This document shows, in pieces, positions 6,684 through 23,369 of a DNA stretch of 23,383 nt (positions are counted from its first letter, which is position 1; each line of letters begins with the position of its first letter). The stretch is taken from positions 1 through 23,383 of the forward strand of contig MGSU01000001.1 of NCBI GenBank assembly GCA_001799195.1, in the 5' to 3' direction. The position numbers and the translations under genes are program-made. The stretch comes from Deltaproteobacteria bacterium RIFOXYA12_FULL_61_11 (lineage in GTDB: Bacteria > Bdellovibrionota_F > JAHFAK01 > YA12-FULL-61-11). The notes under the pieces were generated by a model. That model searched no databases. It was not told where the DNA came from and saw nothing but the letters and a program-made list of their open reading frames with translations.

Positions 6684-9370
6684 GCGAGGAACTCGCGCAG
6701 GACCATGGGGAGGATACCTCCGTGTTCGAGGAAGCGGGCCTCCATCGGGGTATCGACCCGACAATCGACGACGAAGCGGAGGCTGTGCCCATTCTCGGCC
6801 GTGGCGCTGACCTCGAGGTCCTGACCGGGCAGCAGGTGCTCGGGGAGGTGGAGGTCGAAGCGTTCGTGGCCGGTGAGACCGAGCGACCCGGCGCTCTGGC
6901 CGGATTTGAACTGGAGGGGCAGGACGCCCATGCCGATCAGGTTGCTGCGATGGATGCGCTCGTAGCTGCGGGCGAGGACCGCTCGCACGCCGAGCAGGGC
7001 CACGCCCTTCGCCGCCCAATCCCGAGAACTGCCGGTGCCGTACTCACTGCCGGCGAGGAGGATGAGGGGCACGCCCTCGGAGCGATAGCGCCTTGCAGCC
7101 TCGTAGATCCACATCCGTTCGCCGCTCGGCAGGTGGATGGTGTACCCGCCCTCGACCCCGGGCACGAGCCCGTTCTTCAGCCTGACATTGGCTAGAGTCC
7201 CGCGGACCATGACCTGGTCGTTGCCGCGCCGGGCGCCGTACGAATTGAAGTCGGCGGGCTTCACTCCCGAGGTTTCCAGAAAGGTCGCGGCCGGGCTCCC
7301 CCGCTGGATGGAACCGGCGGGAGAGATATGATCGGTGGTGACGCTGTCGCCGAGCAGGGCCAGGACCCTGGCGCCTCGCACCGGCGCAATCGGAGTCGGG
7401 AGGAGGCCGAGGCCCTCCAGGAACGGGGGTTCTCGGAGGTAGGTCGAGGTCGCATCGAAGGGATAGATCGCCCCGGTAGGGGTCTCCAACTCGGCCCAGG
7501 CCGGACTGTAGGCTCCGAGTTCGGCGTAGGACGAGCGGAACAGGTCCGGATCGTCGGCCGACCGCAGGACTTCGGCCAGCTCTTCGGTGCTCGGCCAGAG
7601 GTCCGAGAGGTACACCGGGTGGCCGGCGTTGTCGTGGGCCAGAGGCTCTGTGGTGAGATCGAGATCGATCCGGCCCGCCAGCGCGTAGGCCACAACCAGG
7701 GGGGGTGAGGCGAGGTAATTGGCCTTGACCTGGGGGTTGATCCGGCCCTCGAAGTTACGGTTGCCGGAGAGAATGGCGGCCACGACCAATTCGGGCTTCT
7801 GCCGTAGGGCCTCGGCGATTGCGGGCGGCAATGGCCCGCTGTTGCCGATGCAGGTCGTGCAACCGAAACCCACGGTGTGGAAGCCCAACTCCTCGAGCGC
7901 GGTCAGGAGACCGGTCGAGGCGAGATAGGCCTGCACGACGCGCGAGCCCGGGGCCAGACTGGTCTTGACGTGTCGGGGCACGGTCAAACCACGGGCGCGG
8001 GCTTTCTTGGCCAGGAGGCCGGCGCCGAGCATGACCGATGGGTTGCTGGTGTTGGTACAGCTCGTGATTGCCGCGAGGACCAAGCTGCCGTGGCGCAACT
8101 CAATGACCTCCGGGGTACCGCTCGTGATCGAGACCTCGAGGTCCTTTGCCGTGAGTCCGAATCCGCCCCTGTCCGGGGCCGACGTCAGGGCTGCGGCAAA
8201 GGTCGCGGGTACGGCCGGGAGTTCGACCCGGTCCTGGGGACGCTTCGGTCCCGCCAGACAGGGGCGTACCTCCCCGAGGTCGATGGTCACATGTTGGTCG
8301 TAACGAGGTATGGGCGAACCGGCCTCGCGCAAGAGCCCCTGGGCCCTGGCGTAGCGCTCGACCAAAGCGACCTGGCGTTCCGGACGTCCGGTTCGGCGCA
8401 GGTAGGCCAAACTCTCGCGGTCCATGGGAAAGAAGCCGATCGTAGCTCCATACTCGGGGCACATGTTAGCAATCGTGGCCCGATCGGGCAGGGTCAGCTC
8501 GGCCACGGCCTCGCCGTGGTACTCGACGAAGGCTCCGACCACGCCGACCTTGCGCAAGCGTTCCGTCACCAGGAGAGTCAGATCGGTGGCCGTGACCCCG
8601 GTCCTCATCCGGCCGCGCAGTTCGACCCCGACCACCTTGGGGCAGGCCATGGTCAAGGGTTTGCCGAGCATCACCGCTTCGGCCTCGATGCCACCCACCC
8701 CCCAACCCAGAATACCCAGGCCATTGATCATGGTGGTGTGGGAATCGGTCCCGACGCAGGAATCGGGCAATACGACTTTCCTGCCCTCGGCTTCCCGGAC
8801 GTGTACTCCCGAAGCAAGATGCTCGAGATTGACCTGGTGGATGATGCCCACCCCGGGAGGTACCACGCGAAGACCGGCGAAGGCCTGTTGTCCCCATTTC
8901 AGGAACACGTACCGTTCGCGGTTCCGCTGCAGCTCGAACTCCATGTTTTTGTTCAGAGCGGTGCTCGTGCCATAGACATCGACCTGAATGCTGTGATCGA
9001 TGACGAGGTCGGCCGGGACCCGGGGTTCGATGCAGCGGGGATCCCCGCCGAGGCGTTGCACGGCCGTGCGCAGGGCGGCGAGATCGACCAGGCAGGGGAC
9101 CCCTGTGAAATCCTGCAGCACGACTCTGGCCGGCAGGAAGGGAAACTCGAAGCTCGGGCCTCCGGGTTCCCAGCCGGCAAGGGCGAGGACGTCCTTGTCG
9201 GTGGCCGAGGCTCCGTCGCAGGTGCGCAGAAGGGCCTCGAGCAGGATGCGCAGGCTGTAGGGGAGGGTCGAGACCTCCCCCAGGCCGCGCTGCTGGAGCG
9301 CGTCGAGCGCGTAATAGGTCAGGGTATTGTCGAGCGGACGCAGAGCGCCGAAGGGATCATGGCTGGGCAC
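6680..9370 (-). CDS. acnA: aconitate hydratase A
   Basis: Full-length 896-residue aconitase of the AcnA/IRP1 type, interconverting citrate and isocitrate in the TCA cycle in the cytoplasm. The three cysteine ligands of the [4Fe-4S] cluster are C438 (in AITSCTNTSNPSVM), C504 and C507 (in GFGCTTCIGNSGP). Other family blocks include LPDSCVGTDSHTTM (about 201-214), LSGNRNFEGR (about 534-543), GDSVTTDHISPAG, and the swivelling C-terminal domain with EYGTGSSRDWAAKG. The start is GTG at 9370, giving MPSHDPFG, typical for the family, with AGGAGG 8 nt upstream. The stop overlaps the helicase start by 4 nt, so the two are probably translated together. The gap to rpsT upstream is 152 nt, with no obvious terminator or promoter. 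AcnA-type proteins can also bind mRNA as apo-protein, but nothing here shows that. Confidence 0.97.
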   Translation of the reverse strand: MPSHDPFGALRPLDNTLTYYALDALQQRGLGEVSTLPYSLRILLEALLRTCDGASATDKDVLALAGWEPGGPSFEFPFLPARVVLQDFTGVPCLVDLAALRTAVQRLGGDPRCIEPRVPADLVIDHSIQVDVYGTSTALNKNMEFELQRNRERYVFLKWGQQAFAGLRVVPPGVGIIHQVNLEHLASGVHVREAEGRKVVLPDSCVGTDSHTTMINGLGILGWGVGGIEAEAVMLGKPLTMACPKVVGVELRGRMRTGVTATDLTLLVTERLRKVGVVGAFVEYHGEAVAELTLPDRATIANMCPEYGATIGFFPMDRESLAYLRRTGRPERQVALVERYARAQGLLREAGSPIPRYDQHVTIDLGEVRPCLAGPKRPQDRVELPAVPATFAAALTSAPDRGGFGLTAKDLEVSITSGTPEVIELRHGSLVLAAITSCTNTSNPSVMLGAGLLAKKARARGLTVPRHVKTSLAPGSRVVQAYLASTGLLTALEELGFHTVGFGCTTCIGNSGPLPPAIAEALRQKPELVVAAILSGNRNFEGRINPQVKANYLASPPLVVAYALAGRIDLDLTTEPLAHDNAGHPVYLSDLWPSTEELAEVLRSADDPDLFRSSYAELGAYSPAWAELETPTGAIYPFDATSTYLREPPFLEGLGLLPTPIAPVRGARVLALLGDSVTTDHISPAGSIQRGSPAATFLETSGVKPADFNSYGARRGNDQVMVRGTLANVRLKNGLVPGVEGGYTIHLPSGERMWIYEAARRYRSEGVPLILLAGSEYGTGSSRDWAAKGVALLGVRAVLARSYERIHRSNLIGMGVLPLQFKSGQSAGSLGLTGHERFDLHLPEHLLPGQDLEVSATAENGHSLRFVVDCRVDTPMEARFLEHGGILPMVLREFLA

Positions 9371-9841: not shown

Positions 9842-10101
9842 GCGCTTCGTCGGTCAACCGACAGCTGTTCTCCTCGGGAAAGAAGGCACGCCGCGATCTT
9901 CCTCGAGCGCAGAAGAAAAGCCGACCCGAAACCGGCCTCAACTTTTTTTGGCGCGTCGGTGTGCGGCGGTTAGGCCCTTTATTAACGCCACTTCACAAAT
10001 AACTCTGCCAATACAAAATGCTGCAAGAGAAGCGAGTCCCCGTGGCACGAGGAACGACGCTTGATTGAGAGCCCCAACGATTCGCCACCCAGTTTGGTTT
10101 A

Positions 10102-10115
10102 CAGAGATTTCTCTG
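10102..10115. repeat. short perfect inverted repeat, possible operator
   Basis: CAGAGA-TT-TCTCTG, a 6-2-6 perfect palindrome ending 26 bp before the candidate yhaO -35 box. It could be an operator half-site pair for a dimeric regulator. A second, looser pair, ATCGG (10128-10132) and CCGAT (10146-10150), overlaps the -35 box. Palindromes of this size also occur by chance, so this is only a candidate. Confidence 0.25.
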
Positions 10116-10141
10116 GAACAACGGACCATCGGAAATGCAGG

Positions 10142-10170
10142 TTGTCCGATCCCCTTCTGCGGATTACTAT
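10142..10170 (+). promoter_or_regulatory. candidate promoter of yhaO-yhaN
   Basis: TTGTCC (10142-10147, 4/6) and TACTAT (10165-10170, 4/6) are separated by 17 bp, placing a start near 10177 and a leader of about 37 nt before the ATG at 10214. Box quality is moderate; position and spacing are good. Confidence 0.4.
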
Positions 10171-10201
10171 GCCTCCCGTTGGAGGTCATCGCCTGCGTCT
10201 G

Positions 10202-10208
10202 AAGGAGG
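10202..10208 (+). promoter_or_regulatory. ribosome binding site of yhaO
   Basis: AAGGAGG with 5 nt to ATG 10214. This strong match decides the start in favour of 10214 over the open upstream frame beginning at 10061. Confidence 0.8.
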
Positions 10209-10213
10209 TCGGC

Positions 10214-11524
10214 ATGCATCCGTCCGCCCCTCATCTGCCCCGACGGGAAGGCCGCCCCGACTGTAAATTCCTGCATGCCGCCGACCTCCACCTCGACAGT
10301 CCTCTCCGCGGTCTTGCCGCTGAGCAAGACTCTCCCATACAAGCGCTGCGGGGCGCCACGCGCCGGGCCTTCGAAAATCTGGTCGACCTCGCGCTCCAGG
10401 AGGAGGTCGACTTCGTGCTCCTCGCGGGTGATCTCTACGACGGCTCCTGGCAAGACCTCAGCACCGGCATCTTCCTGGCCCGGCAGCTCGGCCGCCTCGG
10501 CGAACACGCCATCCGGGTCTTTGCGGTGGTCGGCAATCACGATGCAGAGAGCAGGATCACCAAGGCGTTGGAGAAACCCCAGAACCTGACCCTGTTCCCG
10601 GCCGATCTGCCACACACGGTGGTCCTCCCGGAACTCGGGGTCGCCCTCCATGGCCAGAGTTATCGCCAACAGCACGTCCTCGACAACCTTGCCGCCGGCT
10701 TCCCTGCCGCGCTCCCGGGTCTCTGCAATATCGGCTTGTTACACACCAGCCTGGATGGCCGCGAGGGCCATGCACCCTATGCCCCCTGCAAACTCGACGA
10801 GCTACGAAGCAGGGGCTATCAGTATTGGGCTCTCGGGCACGTCCACCAGAGCGAAGTGGTCTGCGAAGACCCCTTCGTCGTCTTCCCCGGATGCCTCCAA
10901 GGTCGGCACATCCGCGAGAGCGGGCCCAAGGGTTGTTATCTGGTCACCGCTTCTGAGAACGCCATCACCTCGCTGGACTGGTACCCCTTGGACGTGGTCC
11001 GCTGGTCCCTGTGCCGCGTCAACCTCGGCCGGAGCGCGACTCTCGCCGACGTTGTGACCGAGGTCAGAGAGGCCCTCTCCCAAACCCTGATCCAGGCCTC
11101 GGGCCGCATCCTCGCGGTCAGGATCCTGCTCGAAGGAAACTCGCCGATCCACGCCGAACTCCAAGGCAAGCTCTACTGGCTCCAGCATGCACTGACCGAG
11201 GTAGCCGCGGAACTGGCCTCAGAAGAACTCTGGATCGAGAAGGTCGTCGCCGCTACCACCGACCTCGTAGAACACCAGGCGATCCTGGCCTCGGAAGGCG
11301 CCTTCGGAGGCTTATTGCAGAACATCCGGGACCTGCCGGAAACGCTCGAAGCGCTGCCCGGCCTGTCCGACACCCTCGCTTCTCTGAGGAACAAACTCCC
11401 CCCGGAGGTGATGACCGCGGAACGCGGCTTCGACCTGGAGGATCCCGAGGTACTCGCCCGGCTCATCAGTGAAGCCAAAGAGTTGCTGCTGACAAAACTG
11501 CTCGAGCCCGGAGCGGGAGTATGA
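10214..11524 (+). CDS. yhaO: metallophosphoesterase, YhaO-type DNA repair exonuclease (Mre11/SbcD-like)
   Basis: About 436 residues. Calcineurin-like phosphoesterase motifs appear in order: DLH (24-26, in FLHAADLHLDSP), GDLYD (72-76), GNHD (107-110), a GLLHTSLDG histidine motif, and GHVHQ. The FLHAADLHLDSPLRGL opening is characteristic of the YhaO branch rather than classical SbcD. Family knowledge predicts an Mn-dependent nuclease partner of the Rad50-like ATPase, acting on DNA ends in the cytoplasm. The following yhaN gene overlaps by 4 nt (ATGA), so equimolar synthesis and a complex are likely. The C-terminal 150 residues are helical and probably carry the ATPase-binding segment. The start rests on the AAGGAGG ribosome binding site. 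Expression probably depends on the promoter at 10142-10170. Confidence 0.9.
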   Translation: MHPSAPHLPRREGRPDCKFLHAADLHLDSPLRGLAAEQDSPIQALRGATRRAFENLVDLALQEEVDFVLLAGDLYDGSWQDLSTGIFLARQLGRLGEHAIRVFAVVGNHDAESRITKALEKPQNLTLFPADLPHTVVLPELGVALHGQSYRQQHVLDNLAAGFPAALPGLCNIGLLHTSLDGREGHAPYAPCKLDELRSRGYQYWALGHVHQSEVVCEDPFVVFPGCLQGRHIRESGPKGCYLVTASENAITSLDWYPLDVVRWSLCRVNLGRSATLADVVTEVREALSQTLIQASGRILAVRILLEGNSPIHAELQGKLYWLQHALTEVAAELASEELWIEKVVAATTDLVEHQAILASEGAFGGLLQNIRDLPETLEALPGLSDTLASLRNKLPPEVMTAERGFDLEDPEVLARLISEAKELLLTKLLEPGAGV

Positions 11525-14500
11525 AAATCAAACGGCTCGACCTCCTGGCCTTCGGGCCGTTCACCGCCACTACGCTCGACCTTGGCAGTCCCGGTCTGCA
11601 CGTGGTCTTCGGCCGCAACGAGGCCGGCAAGAGCTCGACCCTCCGGGCCTTGAAGGCCTGGTTGTTCGGCATCCCCATGCAGACCACAGACGCCTTCCTG
11701 CATAGCTATGCCCAACTCCGGGTAGGAGGCATCCTCTCCTTCGAAGACAGGCGTGAGTTCGCCTTCCTGCGGCGCAAAGCTGCCAAGCACAGCCTCCTCG
11801 ATCCGGTTACCGAACAACCCCTCGACGCCGACACACTGACCAGGCTCCTCGGCGGGCTGGACGAACCGCTCTTCACCCGGCTCTTCGGCATCGATCACAC
11901 CGGACTGGTCAAGGGCGGGGAGGATATCCTCGAGGAAACCGGCGAGCTCGGCAAGGCCTTGTTCGGCGCTGCTCTGGGCAGGACCGGTCTGAGCAAGGTG
12001 CTCGGCGACCTCGGGAAGGAGGCCTCGGAGTTGTTCCGACCGACAGCCTCGAGCAAGCTCATCAACAGAAAAGTGGCGAGACTCCGCGACCTGCGCAAAG
12101 AAGAGCGCAGCAGCCTCCTCTCGGTCAACCGGTGGAAGGAATTGCAAAAAGTCCTCGGAGAGGCCGAGGCAGCGGTGACCCGCAGCGACACCCGAATCGC
12201 CGAGGTCGGTCGCCGCATCAGTCGGCTCGAACGCCATCACCGTATTGCCGGACTCCTGGCCGAACGTCGGGAGTTGTTGGAGCGGAAGGCCGAGCTAGCC
12301 GAGGTCTTGCTCCTGCCCCTCGATTTTCCCGAACAGCGCCGCCTCGCCCTCGAGAGCAAGGAACGGATCCGCGCCCAGCTCGAGAAAGACCTCGCCAGAC
12401 ACGAGCGCTGGAAGGCCGACCTCGCCCAGCTCGTGATCCCGCAGGAGCTGCTCGACCACCGCGACACCATCGAAGTCCTGCACCGGGGCCTCGGCGCGGT
12501 CCAGAAAGCGCAAACGGATCGTCCCCAGCTCGACACCAAGCGGAGGGAGTACCGCAACGAAGCCGAGCGCCTCCTCAGAAGCATTCGTCCAGAGCTCGGC
12601 CTCGAGGAGATCGAGCAACTCAGACCCTTGCTCAACCGAGGCCCTCTGGTGGCGCAACTGGCCGAGGATCACCGCTCGATCAACCAGGCCCTCGTCCAGC
12701 TCGACACCTCGTTGCTCACTCTCGAGACGGAACGTGAGGCTCAGCTCCGCGAACTCGGAGACCTCGAGCGGCAGGAACAGGACCCCGCGCCGCTCAAGGC
12801 CGCGCTAACCTCGGCTCGCAAGACCGGGGACCTTTCGGTACGCCTCGCGGATGTGCGCGGCCGGGTCGAGAGCGAAACAATCGCGTGCTCCCGGGAACTC
12901 TCCCGGCTCGGTCGTTTCAAGGGCACCCTCGAGGAGCTGCTCGTCACCTCCTTTCCCGGCCCCACGGTCCTGGACACCTACGAGCGGCTCTTCGAAGAGC
13001 AACGAGAGCGCAAACACGACCTCGAACGCCGCCGCACCGAGAACGAAGCAGCCCAGAACCAGGCCCACGCCGAACTCGGAGCCCTGCTCAGAGCCGGCGA
13101 AGTGCCTTCTCAGGGTGACCTCGAGCGAGCGAGGTCCCATCGCGACCAAGGCTGGACCCTCGTCCGCACCCTCTATGTGGAGGGAGGAACCGCCGGTGAG
13201 GACATGTTCGCCTTCGCCGCCGGGCAGCCCCTCCCCGACGCCTATGAACGAAGCGTCCTCTCGGCCGACGAGGTCGCCGATCGCCTTCGCAAAGATGCTC
13301 GCGAGGTCCAGCAGCGGGTCATGCTCGAAGCGAGGATCGAACAAGCCGAGGCTCTCCGGACGAACCTCGCCGGCGAGGAGGCTCTTGCGGCAGAAGCAGC
13401 CGCGCACCTCGGATCCGCCTGGACCGCCCTCTGGCAAGGGGTGACCTTGGACATCGGCCAACCCCGCGAGATGAAAGCTTGGTTGTTGCGGGTCGACACC
13501 CTGCTCCATCGGACAGAGGCCTTGCACCTGACCAAGAGCGAGGCTTCGAAACTCGCGGCCGAGCACCAGAGCCATACCGCGGCCGTGGTGACCGAACTCG
13601 CACGCTCCGGTTGTGCCTGCGACGGTCTGGAACTCGAACAACTCCTCCTCCGGGCGGAGCAACTCGTCGAGGATGCAGAGAAGACGAACCGGGAGAGGAA
13701 AGCAACCGAACGCTCCCTCGTCCAACTCGAGCGCAAGCTCCAACGCGCCGTCGAAGATCGCAAGCAGGAGCACGACCGGCTCGACCGTTGGAAAGAGTCT
13801 TGGTCCAAGGCCGTCGAGGGTCTGGGCCTGGGGACCGACCCCCATCCGACCCTCGCCCTCTCCACCATGAAACGCCTTGAGGAACTGTTCGGAACCCTGG
13901 ACAAGAGCGATGAGCTTCGGCGGCGCCTCTATGGCATGGAGATGCACGAACAGGAGTACTTGCGCTCGGTGACCGACTTCGTCGCCCGGCTCGGCCTAGC
14001 CTTCGACACCTCCTCTCCGGACGTCCTGGTGCGCACCTTGGACCAGCGCTCGAGGGAGGCCCAGGCGAATGCTGCCAGCCGCACCAAACTCGTGCAACAA
14101 CTCCACGAACTCGAGGAAGACCTCGCCGATCTGAGGATCGAGCAGCGTACGAGCGACGAACGCCTACACGCCCTGCGGTTCCAGGCTCATGCGGCATCAG
14201 ACGAGGAACTCGAACTCCTCGAACAGCGCTCCCATCGAAAGCGGAACCTCGACGAGCGTCTCGAAGCCCTGGAACACCAACTCCGGCAGAGCGGGGACGG
14301 GCTCGACCTCGAAACCCTCGAAACCGAGTCACGCGAGCTCGACCCCGACCGGGTTGCCGACGAACTCGCTCAACTCCGCGTCGACCACGAGGTCGTACTG
14401 CGGACAAGAGACGAGGAACGGGATCGGCGTCGCACGCTCCTGGATGAACTCTCGACCCTGGATGGCAGGTCCCGAGCCGCGGAAGCCGCCGAAGATGCGG

Positions 14501-15018
14501 AACGGCTCGTGGCCGGACTGGTCTCGGACGCAGAGCACTATCTGAGACTCGAATTCGCGATCTCGATCCTGAACCAGGAAATGGAACGGTACCGCCGCGA
14601 GCACCAGTCTCCCCTGCTTCGGCGCGCCGGGGATCTCTTCGCCCGGCTGACCTTGCACTCGTTTTCCGGGTTACGCGACGAGCTGGACGACAACGGCAAA
14701 CCCGTCCTCCTCGGTCTGCGGTCGGACAAGAACGAGGTCCGGGTCGAGGGCATGAGCGAGGGTACCCGCGATCAGCTCTTCCTGGCCTTGCGCCTGGCAA
14801 CCCTGGAACAACGGCTCGAGCACGGGGAACCCTTCCCCTTCATCGTCGACGACATCCTGGTCGGTTTCGACGACCCCCGCAGCAAGGCCTGTCTGGAGAT
14901 CCTGGCCGAACTGGCGCAGAGAACCCAGGTCCTGGTCTTCACCCACCACCAAGCCGTGGCCACGATGGCTCGCGAGTTGGGTCGAGGATCCGAGGTGTCA
15001 GTCCACGAACTCGGGTGA
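11521..15018 (+). CDS. yhaN: YhaN-type AAA ATPase, Rad50/SbcC-like coiled-coil protein
   Basis: An 1165-residue protein. Walker A is GRNEAGKSS (31-39), followed by the family's LFGIP block (48-52). Around residues 100-160 lie LLGGLDEPLF, LFGIDHTGL and the GGEDILEETGELGKALFGAALG segment that marks YhaN. The middle 750 residues are long Leu/Glu/Arg-rich coiled coils. The C-terminus has the ABC signature-like MSEGTRDQLFLALRLA, a Walker B ending in FIVDD (1107-1111), and the H-loop FTHHQ. Two ATP half-sites at the ends of a coiled coil are the Rad50/SMC design. No C-x-x-C zinc hook is present; the only similar spot is CAC within ARSGCACDGLE. With YhaO it should form a DNA-end processing machine. 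Family length is usually 900-1200, so this is complete. Confidence 0.9.
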   Translation: MKIKRLDLLAFGPFTATTLDLGSPGLHVVFGRNEAGKSSTLRALKAWLFGIPMQTTDAFLHSYAQLRVGGILSFEDRREFAFLRRKAAKHSLLDPVTEQPLDADTLTRLLGGLDEPLFTRLFGIDHTGLVKGGEDILEETGELGKALFGAALGRTGLSKVLGDLGKEASELFRPTASSKLINRKVARLRDLRKEERSSLLSVNRWKELQKVLGEAEAAVTRSDTRIAEVGRRISRLERHHRIAGLLAERRELLERKAELAEVLLLPLDFPEQRRLALESKERIRAQLEKDLARHERWKADLAQLVIPQELLDHRDTIEVLHRGLGAVQKAQTDRPQLDTKRREYRNEAERLLRSIRPELGLEEIEQLRPLLNRGPLVAQLAEDHRSINQALVQLDTSLLTLETEREAQLRELGDLERQEQDPAPLKAALTSARKTGDLSVRLADVRGRVESETIACSRELSRLGRFKGTLEELLVTSFPGPTVLDTYERLFEEQRERKHDLERRRTENEAAQNQAHAELGALLRAGEVPSQGDLERARSHRDQGWTLVRTLYVEGGTAGEDMFAFAAGQPLPDAYERSVLSADEVADRLRKDAREVQQRVMLEARIEQAEALRTNLAGEEALAAEAAAHLGSAWTALWQGVTLDIGQPREMKAWLLRVDTLLHRTEALHLTKSEASKLAAEHQSHTAAVVTELARSGCACDGLELEQLLLRAEQLVEDAEKTNRERKATERSLVQLERKLQRAVEDRKQEHDRLDRWKESWSKAVEGLGLGTDPHPTLALSTMKRLEELFGTLDKSDELRRRLYGMEMHEQEYLRSVTDFVARLGLAFDTSSPDVLVRTLDQRSREAQANAASRTKLVQQLHELEEDLADLRIEQRTSDERLHALRFQAHAASDEELELLEQRSHRKRNLDERLEALEHQLRQSGDGLDLETLETESRELDPDRVADELAQLRVDHEVVLRTRDEERDRRRTLLDELSTLDGRSRAAEAAEDAERLVAGLVSDAEHYLRLEFAISILNQEMERYRREHQSPLLRRAGDLFARLTLHSFSGLRDELDDNGKPVLLGLRSDKNEVRVEGMSEGTRDQLFLALRLATLEQRLEHGEPFPFIVDDILVGFDDPRSKACLEILAELAQRTQVLVFTHHQAVATMARELGRGSEVSVHELG

Positions 15019-15019
15019 G

Positions 15020-15047
15020 TTGCATTCTCGGGCGAACCTTTTATACT
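15020..15047 (+). promoter_or_regulatory. candidate promoter of the PEGA-domain gene
   Basis: TATACT (15042-15047, 5/6 to a -10 box) lies 16 bp after TTGCAT (15020-15025, 3/6). The segment between the yhaN stop and the next start is 61 bp and less GC-rich than its flanks. The -10 is good and the -35 weak. It would allow the PEGA gene to be expressed apart from yhaON. Confidence 0.4.
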
Positions 15048-15079
15048 TCCCCTCCAACACCATGGATGGAGCCTCTGCC

Positions 15080-16501
15080 ATGCGCTTCTTGCTTCTGATC
15101 TTCGCCCTGGCCATGTTCTCAGCTCAGGCCTCGGACCTCCGCGTCAAGGTTGCGCTCCTGGGGATCAAGGACAACGGCGGACTCGACCGGAAAATACTTT
15201 CCAAGATCGAAGCCCACTGGTACCAGAGCCTCGGCGAATTGGAATTGTTCGAACTCCTCCCCGCTGACACCCAGCGCAGCACCTTAGCTCAGCACAAGTT
15301 TTCCCTGGCCACCTGCCGCGACGACGAGTGCCTGGTCAAGGCGGGCAAGCTGCTCGGCGTGGACCAGATCATCTTCGGCGTCGTCAATCGCGACCGCAAC
15401 GCCTTCGACCTCAGCGTCTACGTGCGCGACGTGGTCACGGGTGATCTGACCTTCGACCTGCGTACGAGCGGAGAGGGTGCCCCAAAGGTCCTGGAGGACA
15501 TGCTCGACCAGACCGTCGAGAAGCTCGGCGAGCACTTTACCTCGGCCACCCCGGCCTGGGTTCGGATCTCGTCCTTCCCCTCGGGCGCCACGATCTTCAT
15601 CGACGACGCCGAGGTCGGCATCAGTCCCAAGGAAATCTTTTTGCAGGGCGGGCGAACCTATGACATCCGGCTATCCCTCGAGGGCGAGGGAGACTACAAA
15701 TCCGTGGTGAGCCTCAAGGAAGGGGAAGTCCGGGACTTCGACGTCAACCTGCGCAAGTACGGCCGCAGCGATAGGAAGACCGAACAATTCAGCGACCCGA
15801 CCACGCTCGGTCTTGGCTATGTGGTCATCACCACCACCCCGCCCGACGCCGAAATCACCTTCCGCGGGGCGACCTTCCAGGGATCGCCGCTGACCCAGGC
15901 CAACGTGCCGGCTGGTGCCTACGAACTCCAAGTGACCCACCCGAAGTACAAACCCTATCGTCAGATGGTCCAGGTCACGGACGGCAACAACAGCTTCCCC
16001 GTCGACCTGACCTCCTCGGCCCCCTCGGGCGCCGCGAACCTGGGTATCCTCGGGTATGGGCTCGAGAGCCTGCTCTGGGGCTTCGGCGATGACACCTACT
16101 CTTTCCACGGCCTCGTCCTCGGGTACGGCCGCGTGCTCGGCGCGGGCCGCGTGGCCAAGGCGACGCTGCTTCTCGGCGGCGGGGCCCTCGGAGAGCTCAC
16201 CGACCCCGGTCCGGACCTGTTCTACGACCTCCGGCTGGGGATGACCCTCCACCGGCTCTTGCTCTCCGAGTCCCACGAACTGCACCTCGGCGTCGAACTC
16301 GGCCTCCTCGGGCTCGACCTCGGGGCAATCAGTCCCTCCTACCTACCGCTCGGTCTCCCGGTCGAGCTGCTCTGGCGCCTCCACGGCCGCTGGGGTCTGC
16401 TGCTCTCCCTGACTCCCGAATACCTGCTCAGGATCGATGACGACGTCGACCGCCACCTCCTTGGCGTGACCCTCAAGGTCACTCCCTTTGCCTCATTCTG
16501 A
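15080..16501 (+). CDS. exported PEGA-domain protein with CsgG/TolB-like N-terminus and probable outer-membrane barrel
   Basis: About 473 residues from ATG 15080, chosen because GGAG lies 8 nt upstream (15068-15071) and the frame then opens directly on a signal peptide (hydrophobic core LLLIFALAMF, A-Q-A near residue 17). Residues 20-155 contain TCRDDECLVKAGKLLGVDQIIFG (79-100 in part), a pattern of CsgG/TolB-like N-terminal domains in surface-associated proteins. PEGA domain 1 spans about 160-224 (FPSGATIFIDD and GGRTYDIRLS) and PEGA 2 about 247-310 (TPPDAEITFRG and AGAYELQVTHPKYKPY). The last 150 residues alternate amphipathic strands and end in phenylalanine (TPFASF), the classical terminal signature of outer-membrane barrels. 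Inference: a periplasmic sensor or scaffold anchored in the outer membrane. It has no adjacent kinase on the same strand. Confidence 0.75.
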   Translation: MRFLLLIFALAMFSAQASDLRVKVALLGIKDNGGLDRKILSKIEAHWYQSLGELELFELLPADTQRSTLAQHKFSLATCRDDECLVKAGKLLGVDQIIFGVVNRDRNAFDLSVYVRDVVTGDLTFDLRTSGEGAPKVLEDMLDQTVEKLGEHFTSATPAWVRISSFPSGATIFIDDAEVGISPKEIFLQGGRTYDIRLSLEGEGDYKSVVSLKEGEVRDFDVNLRKYGRSDRKTEQFSDPTTLGLGYVVITTTPPDAEITFRGATFQGSPLTQANVPAGAYELQVTHPKYKPYRQMVQVTDGNNSFPVDLTSSAPSGAANLGILGYGLESLLWGFGDDTYSFHGLVLGYGRVLGAGRVAKATLLLGGGALGELTDPGPDLFYDLRLGMTLHRLLLSESHELHLGVELGLLGLDLGAISPSYLPLGLPVELLWRLHGRWGLLLSLTPEYLLRIDDDVDRHLLGVTLKVTPFASF

Positions 16502-16796: not shown

Positions 16797-17804
16797 TCAG
16801 CCGAAATCGTCCTGGTGATGTTCCAGCACGGCGGCGAGAATCGCGCCGGCCCCGATGCCGCTGGACTGACCGTGGAAGTTGATCAGCAGCCGGTGTTTGA
16901 GCACAGGCTCTGCCAAGATCCGCAGGTCCTCGCAGGTGACGCAGTACCGACCATCGAGCAGGCAATACGCCTTGGCCGCGAGGACGAGGTGTTGCACCGC
17001 CCTCGGTCCGGCGCCGTAGGCCACATGCTCGTCGACCAGCGCCAGCCCTCCGCCCTGCCCCGGCCTCGTCGCCCTCACCAACCGCACCGCGTACTTGAGC
17101 ACGTATTCGGAGATCGGCACGGCCAGGGTCAACCGCTGCAAGTCGAGGATCTCGGTCCTGCCGAGCACCACGGCCGGGGTATCGCCCCGCTCCACCGTGG
17201 TCGCGGCGGCGATCCGCAGCTCCTGTTCCTCGTCGGGATAGCCGACGTCCACCTGGAGCATGAAGCGGTCGAGTTGGGCCTCGGGCAACGGATACGTGCC
17301 CTCCTGCTCGATGGGGTTCTGGGTGGCGTAGACCATGAAAGGCGGTTCGAGCGGGTAGGTGGTGCCGGCCACGGTGACCTGCCGTTCCTGCATGGCCTGC
17401 AAGAGGGCCGATTGGGTCTTGGGCGAGGTGCGGTTGATCTCATCGGCCAGTAACAGGTTGGTGAAGACCGGGCCGCGGATGAAGCGGAAGCTGCGCTCGC
17501 GGGTCAGGCGATCCTCGTCGAGGATCTCGGACCCGAGGATGTCGGCGGGCATCAGGTCCGGCGTGAATTGGACCCGGTTGAAGCCCAGGTCGAGCACCCC
17601 GGCCAGGGTGCTGATCAGCGTGGTCTTGGCTAGGCCGGGTACGCCGATGAACAGGCAATGCCCCTTGGCGAGGAGGCCGGTCAGCAGGAGGTCGACGATG
17701 CGCTCCTGGCCGATCACCACCTTGCCGATCTCCCGCTGCAGATCTCCTCTGGCCGCGGCCACCCGCTGCACCAGGACCTCATCCCTCTCCATGGTCGCCC
17801 TCAT
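16797..17804 (-). CDS. MoxR-family AAA+ ATPase
   Basis: A 335-residue MoxR protein. It shows IGQERIVDLLLTGLLAKGH near the N-terminus, Walker A GVPGLAKT (54-61), QFTPDLMPADILGSE (79-93), Walker B LLLADEIN (117-124), sensor 1 ATQNP (160-164), EGTYPLPEAQLDRFM (168-182), and a C-terminal lid. MoxR ATPases act as chaperones that insert cofactors or activate partner complexes, usually with DUF58 and VWA-domain proteins encoded next door. Neither is present here. Instead the gene is coupled by an ATGA overlap to an upstream peptidase-MA/TPR gene, and its own 3' end faces the small exported-peptide gene across a single base. ATG 17804 is preferred because of that overlap; ATG 17792 (MERDEV) is possible. 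The partner protein is unknown. Confidence 0.93.
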   Translation of the reverse strand: MRATMERDEVLVQRVAAARGDLQREIGKVVIGQERIVDLLLTGLLAKGHCLFIGVPGLAKTTLISTLAGVLDLGFNRVQFTPDLMPADILGSEILDEDRLTRERSFRFIRGPVFTNLLLADEINRTSPKTQSALLQAMQERQVTVAGTTYPLEPPFMVYATQNPIEQEGTYPLPEAQLDRFMLQVDVGYPDEEQELRIAAATTVERGDTPAVVLGRTEILDLQRLTLAVPISEYVLKYAVRLVRATRPGQGGGLALVDEHVAYGAGPRAVQHLVLAAKAYCLLDGRYCVTCEDLRILAEPVLKHRLLINFHGQSSGIGAGAILAAVLEHHQDDFG

Positions 17805-19399
17805 CGTTCCAAGACCGCCGCGTTGCGCTGCTCTCGCGCTGCTTCCTCCGGCCGACCGAGGCGTGTATGGACCTCGGCCAGGAGCCGGTGACTCTGCGCC
17901 AGGAAGGGGTTCTGGTCAAGCACGGCCAAGAGGCTCGCGCGGCTCTCCTGCAACCGGCCCCGCTCCAGAAGCAACTGTCCCAGGAGGAGATGCACGGTCG
18001 GCGACGCCACTTCCAGGGCAGCCGCGGCCTCGAGGCTGCGCAGCGCTTCATCTCCTTGCTTCAATTCCATCTGGCACAAGGCCATTTTTCGTAGGACCTT
18101 GGCCGAACCTCGAGCAGCAAGCTTGTCCGCCTTGGCGTACTCTTGCAAGGCCGGGCGGTCGTGCCCGCGATCGCGCAGGAGATCCCCCAAGCGCAAGAAT
18201 TGTTCGACTCGCTCGTCCAGAGGCCTCTCGTCCTCCTCCTCGTCTGCGGTCTCCTTCCCGATGCGGAACCGGGTCTTGATCCGGTCGGCGAGGCGGCGTT
18301 TCGGCCCGAACTTCGGCAACTGCTCTTGGACCCAGCGCTCGAAGCGGTCGAGCTTCATGCCGGTCAGGGCGTGGAGCTCGGACTCCAGGCTGCCGCCCGC
18401 GGCGATGCCTCCGAGCAAGGTGGCCACGGCGTCCTTGCCCCAGCGTTCGAGCAGGGCATGAACCGTGAAAGCGACCTGGGCGAAGGCGCGGTCGACCTCG
18501 TCGGCGCTGTCGAGCAGGGCCATGCTCGGGTGCATCTTGCCGAAGGGCACGAAGTCGCGGTGCTGAAGGAGTTCGGCCAGCACGGTCTCGGTGCGCTGGT
18601 CGAGCTTCGCGGGCCCTCGCCACAGCCCCTGGTAATACCGGGCGATCCCCTCGTGCAACCAGATGGGCACCGCGTACCCGGTGCGCAAGACGATGAGGAA
18701 GTGGATGAACTCGTGGGAGATGGTGTCGAGCCAGGAATACCCGCGCAGCAGCGCGGCGGGAGAGACGATCATCATCCGGTTGAATTTGCACAGGGCCAGG
18801 GTCCCGGTGGTGTCGACCGCCTGCCGCGATAAGGTGGACACGGCGATGAAGTCGTCCACGGTCGGGTAGACCTCCAGCCTCACCTCGCCCTCGCGAGGTG
18901 CTCCGAGGGCCTCGGTCAAAGCCTCATCAATGCGCCGCAGCGGCGTTTCCAGATAATCCAACAAGACCGCGTCGCGATCGTTGGCCACGAAGACCGTGAA
19001 CCGGCCGAACCGGCGCGGCTCCCGTTGCCGGAAGGGCTGTGTGATCCGCTCGGTGGTGGCGACGAGCTCCAGGAACGCGCGCTGGGCTTCGCCGAGACCA
19101 CCGGCCACTCCCGAAAGCCGCCGGGCGAGGTCGAGAGCAGCCACGTAATCTCCGCTGTAGAGCTCCACCCGGGCCCGAAAATACGTGGCGAGCTGCTCCG
19201 CCCCTTCGCGTTCGAGCTGCTCGGCAATGCGCTCGGCGAAGGCGAGCTGCCCGCGCTCCAGTGCCTCTTCTCCCTGAGCCCACAGCTCGGCGGGCCCGAG
19301 GACCGCGGACCGTGCCTCTTCCGCGGGCAAGAACAACCAGGCCAGGATGCACAGCAACGCGGCCAGGCCTATCGGGCAGTATCGACGGGTTCTGCTCAC
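17801..19399 (-). CDS. membrane-anchored peptidase-MA metallopeptidase with C-terminal TPRs
   Basis: A 532-residue protein. Residues 11-26 form an N-terminal signal or membrane anchor after basic RTRR. A helical region (35-115) looks repeat-like. The catalytic part has ISHEFIHFL, the HExxH zinc site at 229-233, and a downstream LHEG glutamate at 250, the arrangement of the peptidase-MA gluzincins. Residues about 394-532 contain three to four tetratricopeptide repeats (for example RLGDLLRDRGHDRPALQEY and VHLLLGQLLLERGRLQESR). The enzyme should face the periplasm and use TPRs to bind a substrate or partner. GTG 19399 directly follows the TGA of the kinase gene with no gap, and the stop overlaps the MoxR start. 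The substrate is unknown. A non-proteolytic role cannot be excluded, but both zinc-binding histidines and both glutamates are intact. Confidence 0.82.
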   Translation of the reverse strand: MSRTRRYCPIGLAALLCILAWLFLPAEEARSAVLGPAELWAQGEEALERGQLAFAERIAEQLEREGAEQLATYFRARVELYSGDYVAALDLARRLSGVAGGLGEAQRAFLELVATTERITQPFRQREPRRFGRFTVFVANDRDAVLLDYLETPLRRIDEALTEALGAPREGEVRLEVYPTVDDFIAVSTLSRQAVDTTGTLALCKFNRMMIVSPAALLRGYSWLDTISHEFIHFLIVLRTGYAVPIWLHEGIARYYQGLWRGPAKLDQRTETVLAELLQHRDFVPFGKMHPSMALLDSADEVDRAFAQVAFTVHALLERWGKDAVATLLGGIAAGGSLESELHALTGMKLDRFERWVQEQLPKFGPKRRLADRIKTRFRIGKETADEEEDERPLDERVEQFLRLGDLLRDRGHDRPALQEYAKADKLAARGSAKVLRKMALCQMELKQGDEALRSLEAAAALEVASPTVHLLLGQLLLERGRLQESRASLLAVLDQNPFLAQSHRLLAEVHTRLGRPEEAAREQRNAAVLER

Positions 19400-21247
19400 T
19401 CACTCCTCCGGCAAGGTGACGATAAAGGTCGAACCCTTGGGCGGCTCGCTCTCGACGACGATCGTTCCCTTGTGCAATTCTATGAAATACTTGACCAGGT
19501 ATAGACCGAGGCCCGTGCCCTTGGCCATGGCCAGGCGATCGTCCTTGATGCGGTAGAACTTGAGGAAGATGTTCTCGAGGTCCTTCTTGGGAATGCCCAC
19601 GCCCTGATCGCGAACCCGCAGCACCACCTTGCCGTCGCCGCCGGTCGTCTGCACGTGGATACGGGTACCGGGGTGGGAGTACTTGATGGCGTTCTCGATG
19701 AGGTTCTTGATCACCTGGCGGATCAGGTCCGGGTCGATCTTGATCGGGAAGAGCGGCTCGAGGTCGGTCTCGAGGACAATGCCCTTGGTCGAGGCATCAT
19801 AGGTCAGGATGTCGACGTTCTCCTTGACCAGGGCGTTGATGTCCCGGCTGGCTAGGTTGAGCTGCACGCCGGCGGACTCAATCTTGGTGAAATTGAGGAT
19901 CTTGGTGATGAAGTCGTTGAACTCGTCGGAACTCTGCAGGATTTTGTCGATGGACTGCCGTTGCGCATCGCTCAGACCGCCCTCGTTGAGGATGACCTCG
20001 GCCAGACCCTGGATCCTCGCGATCGGGGTTTTCAAATCGTGGGTCATCAGGGATAGGAAGTTGGTTTTGAGCTCCTCGACCTTGTTGAGCAACTTCACCT
20101 CCTCCTCGATCTTCCACCTGGCCTGCGATTCCTTGATCAGGCGGTAGGGGATGAAGATGTAGTAGGAGATGAACACGGCCATGAGCGGGTGGAAGATGTT
20201 GAGGTACCAGCCGAAGAGCTTGAGCGAGGTCAGCGCCAGGAGCACCAGGCTGAGGAATTCGAAACCGAGGAAGAGGATGCCCGGCATGGGCGTGGTGCCG
20301 AAGACCATGGCGCAGGTCAGCGCGCCGACCAGGAAGATCAAGAGCGAGGTCAGGGTCTCGGAGCTGAAGCGATGGGCATTGTCGTTGAGCAGGGTGTCGA
20401 CGATATTGGCGTGAATCTCCACCCGGGACATGCTGAACTTGCCCTCAGCGTTCTTGAAGAACGGCGTGCGGTGGTAGAAATCGGTGTTGACCAGATCGTC
20501 GACGCCATAGAGGACGATCTTGTCCTTGAACTTCGCCGGGTCCGCCTGTCCGGAGAGGATGTCGACCATGGGTACCGCGGGGTACCGGCCTCTCGATCCG
20601 GCGAAATTGACGTAACTGAGCTGCTCATACTGCGGATCGGCGCTGAGGTCGCGACCGAGGTATGCGCTGACCACGGCCAGGTCGAGGGTGACGAACTTCT
20701 TGTTCAACACCCAGTAGTAGCCATAGGTGAAACGGGTGTACTTGCGGTATTCCTGAATGGTGTCCCCGCTGCGGAAGACCTGCGAGAAGACGTCACCGGC
20801 CCGCTCCTGGATGCATTCCGGCAGCTCCTCGAGCGAGACCCCGTCCTCGGCGATCTCGCGTCCCCAGATGATATTCTCGGCGCCCTCGACGGCTTGGCAC
20901 AGGGCCAAGACCTCGCTCGAGGCGAAATACTCCTGGGCCCGGATGTGGAAATCCACGCCGATGACCTTGGCCCCGGCTTCGCGCAGGAAGGTCAGCACCC
21001 GCGTGTGGTAGTCGAGCGGGATGGGCCAGGATATCCCCTCGCGTTCGTACAGGTCGCGGGTGACGGTGACCAGGAGGATGCGCGGATCGACCTCGCGTTC
21101 GCCCTTGAGCTTGACGAAGGTGTCGTACAGGTCGAGCTGTTTCCGGCTGAAGGAGAAGAATTCGACGTTGAACACCACGGTCAAGAAGAGACCGAAGGCT
21201 AGGTACAGGACGACCTGGGCGAGGGTGCGGGGGGTAGGCCTGTTCAC
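19400..21247 (-). CDS. CHASE2-domain sensor histidine kinase
   Basis: A 615-residue inner-membrane kinase. Transmembrane segment 1 covers about 9-27. An extracytoplasmic CHASE2 domain (about 36-295) includes ISWPIPLDYHTRVLTFL, AGAKVIGVDFHI and RVEIHANIVDTLL. It is followed by three membrane segments (about 299-366), the usual CHASE2 topology. A short coiled coil leads to the H-box LMTHDLKTPIARI with H403. The N-box is NLIENAIKYS (515-524), G1 is RDQGVGIP (546-553), the F-box LKFY, and G2 GTGLGLYLVK (577-586). No receiver or PAS domain and no adjacent response regulator is present, so the output partner is encoded elsewhere or lies in the co-transcribed genes. The start is GTG 21247, overlapping the stop of a 27-codon leader frame (GTGA). 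The candidate promoter at 21351-21379 would serve the whole kinase-peptidase-MoxR operon. Confidence 0.92.
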   Translation of the reverse strand: MNRPTPRTLAQVVLYLAFGLFLTVVFNVEFFSFSRKQLDLYDTFVKLKGEREVDPRILLVTVTRDLYEREGISWPIPLDYHTRVLTFLREAGAKVIGVDFHIRAQEYFASSEVLALCQAVEGAENIIWGREIAEDGVSLEELPECIQERAGDVFSQVFRSGDTIQEYRKYTRFTYGYYWVLNKKFVTLDLAVVSAYLGRDLSADPQYEQLSYVNFAGSRGRYPAVPMVDILSGQADPAKFKDKIVLYGVDDLVNTDFYHRTPFFKNAEGKFSMSRVEIHANIVDTLLNDNAHRFSSETLTSLLIFLVGALTCAMVFGTTPMPGILFLGFEFLSLVLLALTSLKLFGWYLNIFHPLMAVFISYYIFIPYRLIKESQARWKIEEEVKLLNKVEELKTNFLSLMTHDLKTPIARIQGLAEVILNEGGLSDAQRQSIDKILQSSDEFNDFITKILNFTKIESAGVQLNLASRDINALVKENVDILTYDASTKGIVLETDLEPLFPIKIDPDLIRQVIKNLIENAIKYSHPGTRIHVQTTGGDGKVVLRVRDQGVGIPKKDLENIFLKFYRIKDDRLAMAKGTGLGLYLVKYFIELHKGTIVVESEPPKGSTFIVTLPEE

Positions 21248-21327
21248 GCGGCCCTCGGCTCGTCGGACCCGTCGGACCTGGTCCCGGTCGTTCGGTCATC
21301 GCGCTGGTGGTGGTTCTCGTGGCTCAT
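21244..21327 (-). CDS. 27-codon leader ORF overlapping the kinase start
   Basis: ATG at 21327, preceded by GAGG at 5 nt, opens a frame that reads M-S-H-E-N-H-H-Q-R-D-D-R-T-T-G and stops at 21244-21246, so that its TGA lies within the GTG start of the kinase (GTGA). The peptide is hydrophilic and rich in His, Asp and Arg, with no signal or membrane segment. The geometry equals the 4-nt overlaps seen between the accepted genes of this window, which suggests translational coupling of the kinase to a leader peptide. It could also be a chance frame in GC-rich sequence, or an independent small protein. The kinase GTG has only a weak ribosome binding site of its own. Confidence 0.35.
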   Translation of the reverse strand: MSHENHHQRDDRTTGTRSDGSDEPRAA

Positions 21328-21350: not shown

Positions 21351-21379
21351 ATACTACACCGCTGGCCGCACGGAGTAAA
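21351..21379 (-). promoter_or_regulatory. candidate promoter of the kinase-peptidase-MoxR operon
   Basis: On the minus strand TTTACT (21379-21374, 4/6) and TAGTAT (21356-21351, 4/6) are 17 bp apart. They lie between the end of the family 4 glycosyltransferase gene (21391) and the leader ORF (ATG 21327). The predicted start is near 21344. It would uncouple this operon from the glycosyltransferase genes upstream; no terminator hairpin separates them. Confidence 0.4.
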
Positions 21380-21390
21380 CAGGTATGGTG

Positions 21391-22569
21391 TCACCTCTTC
21401 GTAGGTCCTCCCGCCCGGTAGATTCCTTCCAGCCGCCTCAGATGGTCACCGAGCGTCGGCAAGGTCCCGCGGCATTCCGGGAGCGTACCTGCTGCGAGGG
21501 TCTCGACGAGATGAGAGATCCCATCGGCCAAGGCCTCGGCATCCCCGGGGTGAACGAGGTAGCCTCCTTGGTGCCGGCCGTGCAGCTCGGCGATACCGCC
21601 GAGGTCCGAACCGAGGTACGGGACACCTCGGGCCAGGGCCTCGAGCACGACCAGCGGACCGATCTCGGGCCACAGCGAGGGCACGAGCAGGCCGTCGATG
21701 GTTTTCCACAGCTCGTCCATGGCCTCGAAATCCAGGAGCGGCAGCGCCCTGCACCCGGGAAGACCGAGATCCAGTCCTGGCGTGAGGAGTTCGAAGTCGC
21801 GCTTGCGCAGCAGGCCGAGAGCCTGGCGCAAGACGTCGAAGCCCTTGTGGACCTGGGTCCCTCCCGCATAGAGCAGCCGCGGTCGTTTCCCAGGCGGCCT
21901 TGTGCGGGGGCTTACCCCGCTCGGCGCGAAGTGGTTCAGGCGACGCAGGCCCACTCCGGGGAAGGCCGCGGCCAGGGGTGCCGCCAGGTGTTCGGCGGGC
22001 AGGAGCAAGGCTTCTAAGGACCGGAAAGCCCGGCCGAGGGTGTGCCGATACCAGCGGAGGAATAGCGGGGCCAGGGTGCGCCGGAGCGGATCGCGGCCTC
22101 TCCCGAGGCACCGGGCACAAACGGCAAGCCCAGGGCCGCGGCAGGGGGTACCGTCCTGATCCAGCAGGTGCAAGCGCGGGCAGAGCAAGAAGTGATCGTG
22201 CACGCTCAGGAAGACCCGCGCTCCCAGCTCCGCGGCTCTCGGGATCAATCCCGGGGAAAAACCCAGGAGGTGCTGGAGATGGACGACCTCGGGCTGGAAG
22301 GAGCGCAGTTCGGCCACACACGCCTGAGTGGTATCCTTATTATAGACCGCGGTGAGCAGACCGCTCGCCCCCCCGTGGGAGACCCTGACGTGCGAGACCC
22401 CGCTCTGTTCGAACTTCCGGAGAGCCGGTCCGCGACCCGACTCGGCCGCAGCAACCCACAACACTTGGTGCCCCGAGGCGGCCAAGGCCTCGACAACCGT
22501 GTGGGTGTAACGCTCGATCCCCCCGAACCCCTCGGGTGGAGCACAGTGCGACACGAGGGCGATCCTCAT
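21391..22569 (-). CDS. glycosyltransferase family 4 (GT-B fold)
   Basis: About 392 residues from ATG 22569, whose ATGA overlaps the stop of the family 2 glycosyltransferase. In-frame sequence upstream of this ATG lies inside that gene and is discarded. The N-terminal domain opens MRIALVSH and carries the glycine loop GFGGIERYTH (14-23) and SVHDHFLLCPRLHLL (122-136). Cysteines at 130, 143, 151 and 154 form a C-x12-C-x7-C-x-x-C cluster seen in a subset of family 4 enzymes, perhaps binding a metal. The C-terminal donor-binding domain has RLLYAGGTQVHKGFDVL and the E-x7-E motif within PEIGPLVVLEALARG. The enzyme should transfer a sugar from a nucleotide donor to a glycan or lipid at the cytoplasmic face. 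Sugar and acceptor are unknown. Confidence 0.88.
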   Translation of the reverse strand: MRIALVSHCAPPEGFGGIERYTHTVVEALAASGHQVLWVAAAESGRGPALRKFEQSGVSHVRVSHGGASGLLTAVYNKDTTQACVAELRSFQPEVVHLQHLLGFSPGLIPRAAELGARVFLSVHDHFLLCPRLHLLDQDGTPCRGPGLAVCARCLGRGRDPLRRTLAPLFLRWYRHTLGRAFRSLEALLLPAEHLAAPLAAAFPGVGLRRLNHFAPSGVSPRTRPPGKRPRLLYAGGTQVHKGFDVLRQALGLLRKRDFELLTPGLDLGLPGCRALPLLDFEAMDELWKTIDGLLVPSLWPEIGPLVVLEALARGVPYLGSDLGGIAELHGRHQGGYLVHPGDAEALADGISHLVETLAAGTLPECRGTLPTLGDHLRRLEGIYRAGGPTKR

Positions 22570-23369
22570 TGCCGCTTCGCCCCCCCCCGGACGAGGTCCT
22601 TCCACCCCCATTTCCGCGCGTAGCGCAGAAGGCTGACCCCGTGGTGCAGCACCACGCTGTTGAGGCCGAACGTCCGGGAGCTCTGCCGGGCATGGTGATG
22701 GTACATCCGCGCCGCAGGCACGTAACGGACTTCGTACCCCCGTTCGGCAAGGGAACGGCACAGGTCGACATCCTCGAAGTACAGGAAATAGCGTTCGTCG
22801 AGCCCACCGAGTTCCTCGAGGACGCGTCTCCTGAGCAAGAACGACGCTCCGAGGACCCAATCCACCGCCACCTCCCGGTCGTGGCAGCAATCCATCATCA
22901 GGTGCCGGCGGAGGGTCTGTCCCAGGAAGGGTTGGAAGGGAAGGCGCGACGCCAGCAAGGCCGACAGGGTGTAGAAGCGGCGGCACGAGTACTGGAGCGA
23001 GCCATCGGCATCGAGCAGGCAGGGCGCGGCCAGACCGACCCTCGGGTCGGTCTCGAGGGTCTCCAGCAACCGCTCGACCGCACCGGGACACACCACCACG
23101 TCGGGGTTGAGCACGAGCAAGAATTCGCCGCGGCTCACGCGCAGTCCTTGGTTCACGGCCCTGGCAAAACCGACGTTGCGTTCGTTGAACACAAAGGAAC
23201 AGCGGCAGGAGGGGGGGAGGTTTCCGCACAGGGCGACGAGGTCGGTGAGACCGTTCTCGACGACCACAACCTCGGCTTCGAGCATCGCGAGCTCCTCGAC
23301 CAGGGCTTCGAGACAGATGGAGAGTACGTCGGGCTGGTGGTAGTCGATGATGACGACCGAGAGCTTCAT
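22566..23369 (-). CDS. glycosyltransferase family 2, rhamnosyltransferase-like
   Basis: A 267-residue protein from ATG 23369. The GT-A core starts SVVIIDYHQ, with the NVGFARAVNQG loop (65-75), the metal motif LNPD (87-90), and DWVLGASFLLRR (170-181). The acceptor motif FLYFEDVDLCRSLAERGY (195-212) is the WbbL-type pattern, in which ED binds the acceptor hydroxyl. By family, such enzymes often add rhamnose or another deoxysugar to O-antigen or similar polymers. The actual sugar is not determined. It overlaps the following family 4 gene by 4 nt. Upstream sequence ends 14 bases beyond the start, so the rest of the cluster is outside the window. Confidence 0.88.
   Translation of the reverse strand: MKLSVVIIDYHQPDVLSICLEALVEELAMLEAEVVVVENGLTDLVALCGNLPPSCRCSFVFNERNVGFARAVNQGLRVSRGEFLLVLNPDVVVCPGAVERLLETLETDPRVGLAAPCLLDADGSLQYSCRRFYTLSALLASRLPFQPFLGQTLRRHLMMDCCHDREVAVDWVLGASFLLRRRVLEELGGLDERYFLYFEDVDLCRSLAERGYEVRYVPAARMYHHHARQSSRTFGLNSVVLHHGVSLLRYARKWGWKDLVRGGAKRQ

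Follow-up and report, generated by a model that had tools for sequence, protein, structure and literature searches.

Few substrates are known for MoxR-VWA systems, widespread as these are. The locus considered here raises the question whether a MoxR ATPase, packed together with a CHASE2 sensor histidine kinase and a peptidase-MA/TPR protein (PepMA), constitutes a signalling system of its own. A first-pass annotation had read it in this way, as a novel, self-contained signalling unit of the envelope that lacks DUF58 and VWA proteins. The window, by which we mean the whole stretch of DNA that was analysed, is an entire contig (C1) of 23,383 bases from a draft bin of 4.64 Mb in 342 contigs, 87% complete, whose phylum is represented by one other genome in our comparison set. 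With a probability of roughly 60%, we consider that the PepMA-MoxR pair of the window belongs to a conserved MoxR-VWA envelope module and forms its upstream half; in this genome, the module is split into at least four loci, and the upstream half has been placed locally under or beside a sensor kinase.

In the order of transcription, the minus strand of the window encodes the glycosyltransferases GT2 (22566–23369; Pfam Glyco_tranf_2_3, 9.2e-18) and GT1 (21391–22569; Glyco_trans_1_4, 4.7e-15), a 27-codon leader open reading frame (21244–21327), the CHASE2 histidine kinase (19400–21247; 615 aa, GTG start), PepMA (17801–19399; 532 aa) and MoxR (16797–17804; 335 aa). Pfam matches on this strand bear out the last three genes as they had been annotated, and the sequence confirms the tight junctions: a GTGA overlap between leader and kinase, a zero gap between kinase and PepMA (TGA directly followed by GTG, with a Shine-Dalgarno-like GGAGG ahead) and an ATGA overlap between PepMA and MoxR. 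Of the proposed four-part set, the leader is unproven as a gene: its codon score of 1.6 bits, which about 97% of the contig’s real coding 81-mers but also 24% of antisense 81-mers equal or exceed, lies at the low edge of coding stretches and within non-coding reach. GT2 and GT1 are likewise joined by an ATGA overlap. As only 63 nt separate the end of GT1 from the leader, and both have the same orientation, the transcription unit of the trio may begin further upstream, at the glycosyltransferase genes. Scanning the locus for promoters and terminators returned nothing above chance; a weak candidate promoter, TTTACT-N17-TAGTAT (21351–21379, minus strand, 8 of 12 matches), was read directly off the sequence between GT1 and the leader and falls below the scan threshold.

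MoxR is the last gene of the minus-strand row, and the adjacent gene, which encodes a PEGA-domain protein (15020–16501), is convergent, ending at 16501. This gene, which possibly starts further downstream at an ATG, lies directly 3′ of an AAA_27 gene that forms, with a metallophosphatase gene, a YhaO/YhaN- or SbcCD-like pair on the plus strand (10061–15018), again with an ATGA overlap.

The kinase contains CHASE2 (5.5e-28), HisKA (1.4e-13) and HATPase_c (1.5e-29) domains with a phospho-accepting histidine, and its H box (THDLKTP), N box (NLIENAIKYS) and G boxes are all present, as in CHASE2 histidine kinases generally. MoxR shows the AAA_3 core (1.4e-61), the AAA_lid_2 domain (2.1e-14) and the Walker A (GVPGLAKT) and Walker B (LLADEINR) motifs of its family; the nearest solved structure is 2r44 (E 1.5e-79). 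PepMA (Peptidase_MA_2, 2.7e-10; TPR_16, 8.2e-11) consists of an N-terminal membrane helix, a gluzincin peptidase domain (residues ~126–372) and C-terminal TPRs (residues ~396–531). Its HExxH motif (18701–18715, minus strand; H229, E230 and H233) and the glutamate E250 (18650–18652, minus strand), 17 residues past the second histidine, are invariant in alignments of 9 and of 30 homologues, and the pattern of the gluzincin family makes E250 the probable third zinc ligand. The full-length AlphaFold model has a mean pLDDT of 89.5. Because TPR proteins made up nearly all matches of a fold search with this model, a separate model was built for the peptidase domain (pLDDT 95.2), which resembles collagenase, M30 and M1 peptidases with Z of 13–17 over about 200–229 residues. 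With HExxH, the downstream glutamate and a zincin fold on the predicted model, PepMA is a gluzincin metallopeptidase of the peptidase MA clan with intact active site and fold, for which activity is predicted.

Overlapping or zero-gap junctions, together with a CHASE2 domain and a peptidase that are both predicted to face outwards, would be in line with a dedicated signalling unit, in which the kinase would be the sensor, PepMA would operate in the periplasm and MoxR would remodel the kinase or a partner without recourse to DUF58 or VWA proteins. Among the window proteins scanned, none adjoining the trio is a DUF58 protein, a VWA protein or a response regulator, as had been stated. Against such a unit, however, speaks that in various phyla the PepMA-MoxR linkage exists with no kinase involved. 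Within a first sample of 59 relatives, nearly all from other phyla, eight encode full-length PepMA orthologues (26–31% identity, invariant HExxH...E), and in seven of these eight PepMA directly precedes MoxR. A larger sample of 386 genomes yielded 35 with a strong PepMA match, from which 30 loci were fetched, including the window’s own locus and eight from first-sample genomes; MoxR adjoins PepMA in 22 of the 29 non-window loci. The best 80 PepMA loci of named genomes, a biased sample as far as proportions are concerned, stem from Myxococcota (36), Nitrospinota (14), Planctomycetota (13), Binatota (4), Elusimicrobiota (2), Pseudomonadota (2) and others. Here, DUF4175 is found directly upstream of PepMA in 69 of 74 evaluable loci, MoxR directly after PepMA in 38 of 72 and DUF58 after MoxR in 18 of 63. 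Altogether, the link between peptidase and MoxR is strongly supported.

In several of these loci MoxR is followed, in turn, by DUF58, a membrane VWA protein of the BatA type, DUF4159 and a further VWA protein that has a GATase1-like part; directly before PepMA there usually stands a DUF4175-family protein of about 1,000 residues. The full order DUF4175-PepMA-MoxR-DUF58-BatA-DUF4159-VWA is present in L040/L073 (a single locus contained in two collections), L043, L041, L046 and L087. Among the papers searched, none describes this seven-gene module, and none mentions MoxR alongside DUF4175 or alongside both DUF58 and DUF4159. The module is separable: Nitrospinota have DUF4175-PepMA-MoxR with no DUF58 after MoxR, Planctomycetota and many Myxococcota have DUF4175-PepMA with no MoxR beside it, and in Brocadia-type and Myxococcaceae loci PepMA does not adjoin MoxR. 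Further genes with weak matches to the PepMA profile, probably to TPRs, lie near the main PepMA gene in L072, L104, L109 and L115.

All seven module families are encoded in the genome of the window as well, at four places, with the VWA gene cut by contig ends. Contig C94 carries DUF58, BatA and the genome’s only DUF4159 in overlapping frames and without MoxR; DUF4175 (E 2.5e-92) is located on C315, apart from other module genes; and the VWA/GATase1-like gene (E 4.1e-108) runs off the end of C78, its C-terminal part being found at the end of C260. Hence, the supposed independence from DUF58 and VWA proteins is not supported, given that DUF58, BatA as a VWA protein, DUF4159, DUF4175 and a second VWA protein are all encoded elsewhere in this genome. 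The separation of PepMA-MoxR from DUF58-BatA-DUF4159 is not a contig-end artefact, because both groups have further genes beyond them.

Several neighbours of the scattered parts deserve mention. On C94 (L135), a 589-aa protein without Pfam or NCBIfam match (1304–3073) overlaps DUF58 by 4 nt and is a candidate for an additional module subunit. A HAMP histidine kinase (7162–8892) follows 355 nt past DUF4159, so that a kinase is found beside the module’s other half too. On C78 (L144), two genes that look FHA-domain-like by sequence (10435–14111) directly precede the VWA/GATase1-like gene, the second overlapping it via ATGA.

Apart from C94, DUF58 is encoded at only one further place in the genome, C247, in a canonical-looking Bat row. 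MoxR proteins are conserved enough to be interchanged in principle, and the window MoxR might serve this Bat operon, or act alone as a general chaperone. Yet C247 has its own MoxR directly before DUF58, and in both families the C247 protein belongs to another lineage: PepMA-linked MoxRs include that of the window (SH-aLRT 92) but not that of C247, and PepMA-linked DUF58s are the nearest relatives of the C94 DUF58, again with that of C247 apart, where the forks placing the window MoxR and the C94 DUF58 have moderate support, below 95%. We thus regard service to C247 or a solitary chaperone role as highly improbable. A further MoxR, on C14, is very divergent and has no DUF58 neighbour; it could serve C94. 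Family membership and phylogeny, rather than genetic linkage, would connect C1 with C94, C315 and C78. By tetranucleotide composition, C94, C315 and C78 resemble C1 no less than the rest of the bin does, which gives no hint of misbinning as the cause of the scatter, although this is a weak test, since r within the bin is 0.68–0.82 and one foreign genome reaches 0.75.

The kinase is the part of the trio that sets the window apart. CHASE2 was sought in all open reading frames of the PepMA loci and found in the window locus only, in none of the 88 others, and no kinase precedes PepMA in the 29 non-window loci of the larger sample. CHASE2 proteins as such are encoded in 28 of 50 PepMA-bearing genomes, never beside PepMA. 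In the window, the CHASE2 kinase is located at the place where other genomes have DUF4175. Among the matches listed for the kinase in the 59 relatives, besides the window itself, only the kinase half (residues ~304–615) is covered, and the plasmid matches listed are likewise partial, over the kinase half. Of the three families, the PepMA-MoxR pair is retained across phyla, and among the loci checked a kinase stands before it in the window only. A gene order peculiar to this genome and DUF58/VWA partners at another locus are two outcomes that the first-pass annotation had itself named as refuting its reading. With no kinase ahead of PepMA in any other genome checked, and with PepMA-MoxR being half of a wider system whose DUF58/VWA partners lie elsewhere in the genome, the trio is probably not a new self-contained signalling system, and we deem a dedicated unit of kinase, peptidase and MoxR improbable.

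The same observations bear on whether the kinase is merely a passenger, brought in front of PepMA by a chance junction after rearrangement and sharing a transcript with the pair but not a function; PepMA-MoxR would then still be half of a scattered module. Such an origin would fit a kinase unique to the window locus, the seemingly unrelated glycosyltransferase genes that lie ahead of it in the same orientation, and a module that is rearranged elsewhere, too. In L127 (10576–14586), MoxR-DUF58-BatA is inverted with respect to DUF4175-PepMA, making the module halves convergent, and in L116 the module is shortened. On the other hand, the zero-gap junction with its Shine-Dalgarno-like GGAGG suggests coupled translation, though junctions of this kind are common. 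We consider a passenger kinase rather unlikely, less so than a dedicated unit.

For the preferred reading, a split module with a sensor kinase set over or beside its upstream half, we propose the following scheme. The pairing of MoxR with VWA proteins has been described as a functional unit (PMC5898192, PMC7159879), and we follow the literature on such pairs (PMC5898192, PMC7159879, PMC3557215) in regarding MoxR as a chaperone ATPase for partners and complexes that bear VWA domains. Judging from family knowledge and conserved linkage, the cytoplasmic and presumably hexameric MoxR would engage DUF58 and, by their VWA domains, BatA and the second VWA protein, and so assemble or remodel a membrane complex of DUF4175, BatA, VWA and DUF4159, with DUF4175 and DUF4159 as its putative large extracytoplasmic parts. 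PepMA, anchored by a single N-terminal helix and facing the periplasm, would be the zinc peptidase of the module; its TPRs may recruit the peptidase to a partner or substrate, and the output of the module would then include cleavage of an envelope protein by PepMA.

In this lineage, the CHASE2 kinase gene would have taken the usual place of DUF4175. The kinase may respond to a cue from outside the cytoplasm and, by way of a response regulator encoded elsewhere, adjust the expression of the surrounding envelope genes, PepMA-MoxR included. Given its position in this one genome, expression control via an unlinked response regulator is the likeliest role of the kinase; a physical link of the kinase with PepMA or MoxR is not indicated. 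That a two-component system can control a MoxR operon is known from Riemerella anatipestifer, where PhoP of the PhoPR system acts on the moxR gene in the Bat operon (PMC11834572). More tentatively, the lineage may have been rewired, in that the peptidase and the ATPase were separated from their VWA partners and came directly under the CHASE2 kinase, such that envelope sensing gates the proteolytic arm; we hold this to be possible but less likely than not.

How does the locus compare with known systems? As a sensor, the kinase resembles other CHASE2 histidine kinases in its CHASE2, HisKA and HATPase_c domains and complete kinase boxes; it differs from them in having no adjoining response regulator and in its linkage to PepMA-MoxR. 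With the MoxR-vWA ternary conflict systems (PMC7159879) the window shares a MoxR chaperone with a VWA partner, and the bpMoxR profile matches with 41 bits, but the window MoxR scores far higher with AAA_3 (207 bits), and no VMAP, iSTAND, FtsH, beta-propeller or effector was recognised beside it among the Pfam-identified neighbours. An anti-phage or conflict system was rejected on the ground that neither PepMA nor MoxR has a PADLOC match; those of the kinase are limited to three PDC-M43B models, via the kinase/ATPase region.

The Bat (Bacteroides aerotolerance) operon, moxR-DUF58-VWA-TPR, is closer: it has in common with the present genome MoxR, DUF58 and a BatA-type membrane VWA protein (on C94), a TPR protein and, in one reported case (PMC11834572), two-component control. 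DUF58 and VWA genes, which in Bat operons adjoin moxR, are absent from beside the window MoxR and present on C94. Unlike in the Bat operon, the TPRs here share one protein with a gluzincin peptidase, which is encoded directly ahead of MoxR; DUF4175 and DUF4159 proteins are the partners, and the parts are scattered; moreover, this genome has a separate canonical-looking Bat-type locus in C247.

The closest counterpart is the seven-gene cluster of Myxococcota, other former deltaproteobacteria, Pseudomonadota and further phyla, of which shorter forms occur in Nitrospinota, Binatota and Planctomycetota. All seven families are shared, and PepMA is kept directly upstream of MoxR. The window departs from this cluster in that the parts are split over C1, C94, C315 and C78/C260, and that a CHASE2 kinase, not DUF4175, lies directly upstream of PepMA, DUF4175 being on C315. 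As a case of a scattered module, the window shows which genes keep together, namely PepMA-MoxR and DUF58-BatA-DUF4159. The interest of the locus resides in the conserved peptidase-MoxR pair, in the seven-gene row and in the way this lineage has its parts dispersed: a conserved gluzincin peptidase fused to TPRs, which regularly adjoins MoxR in several phyla, would offer a concrete enzymatic output for MoxR-VWA systems.
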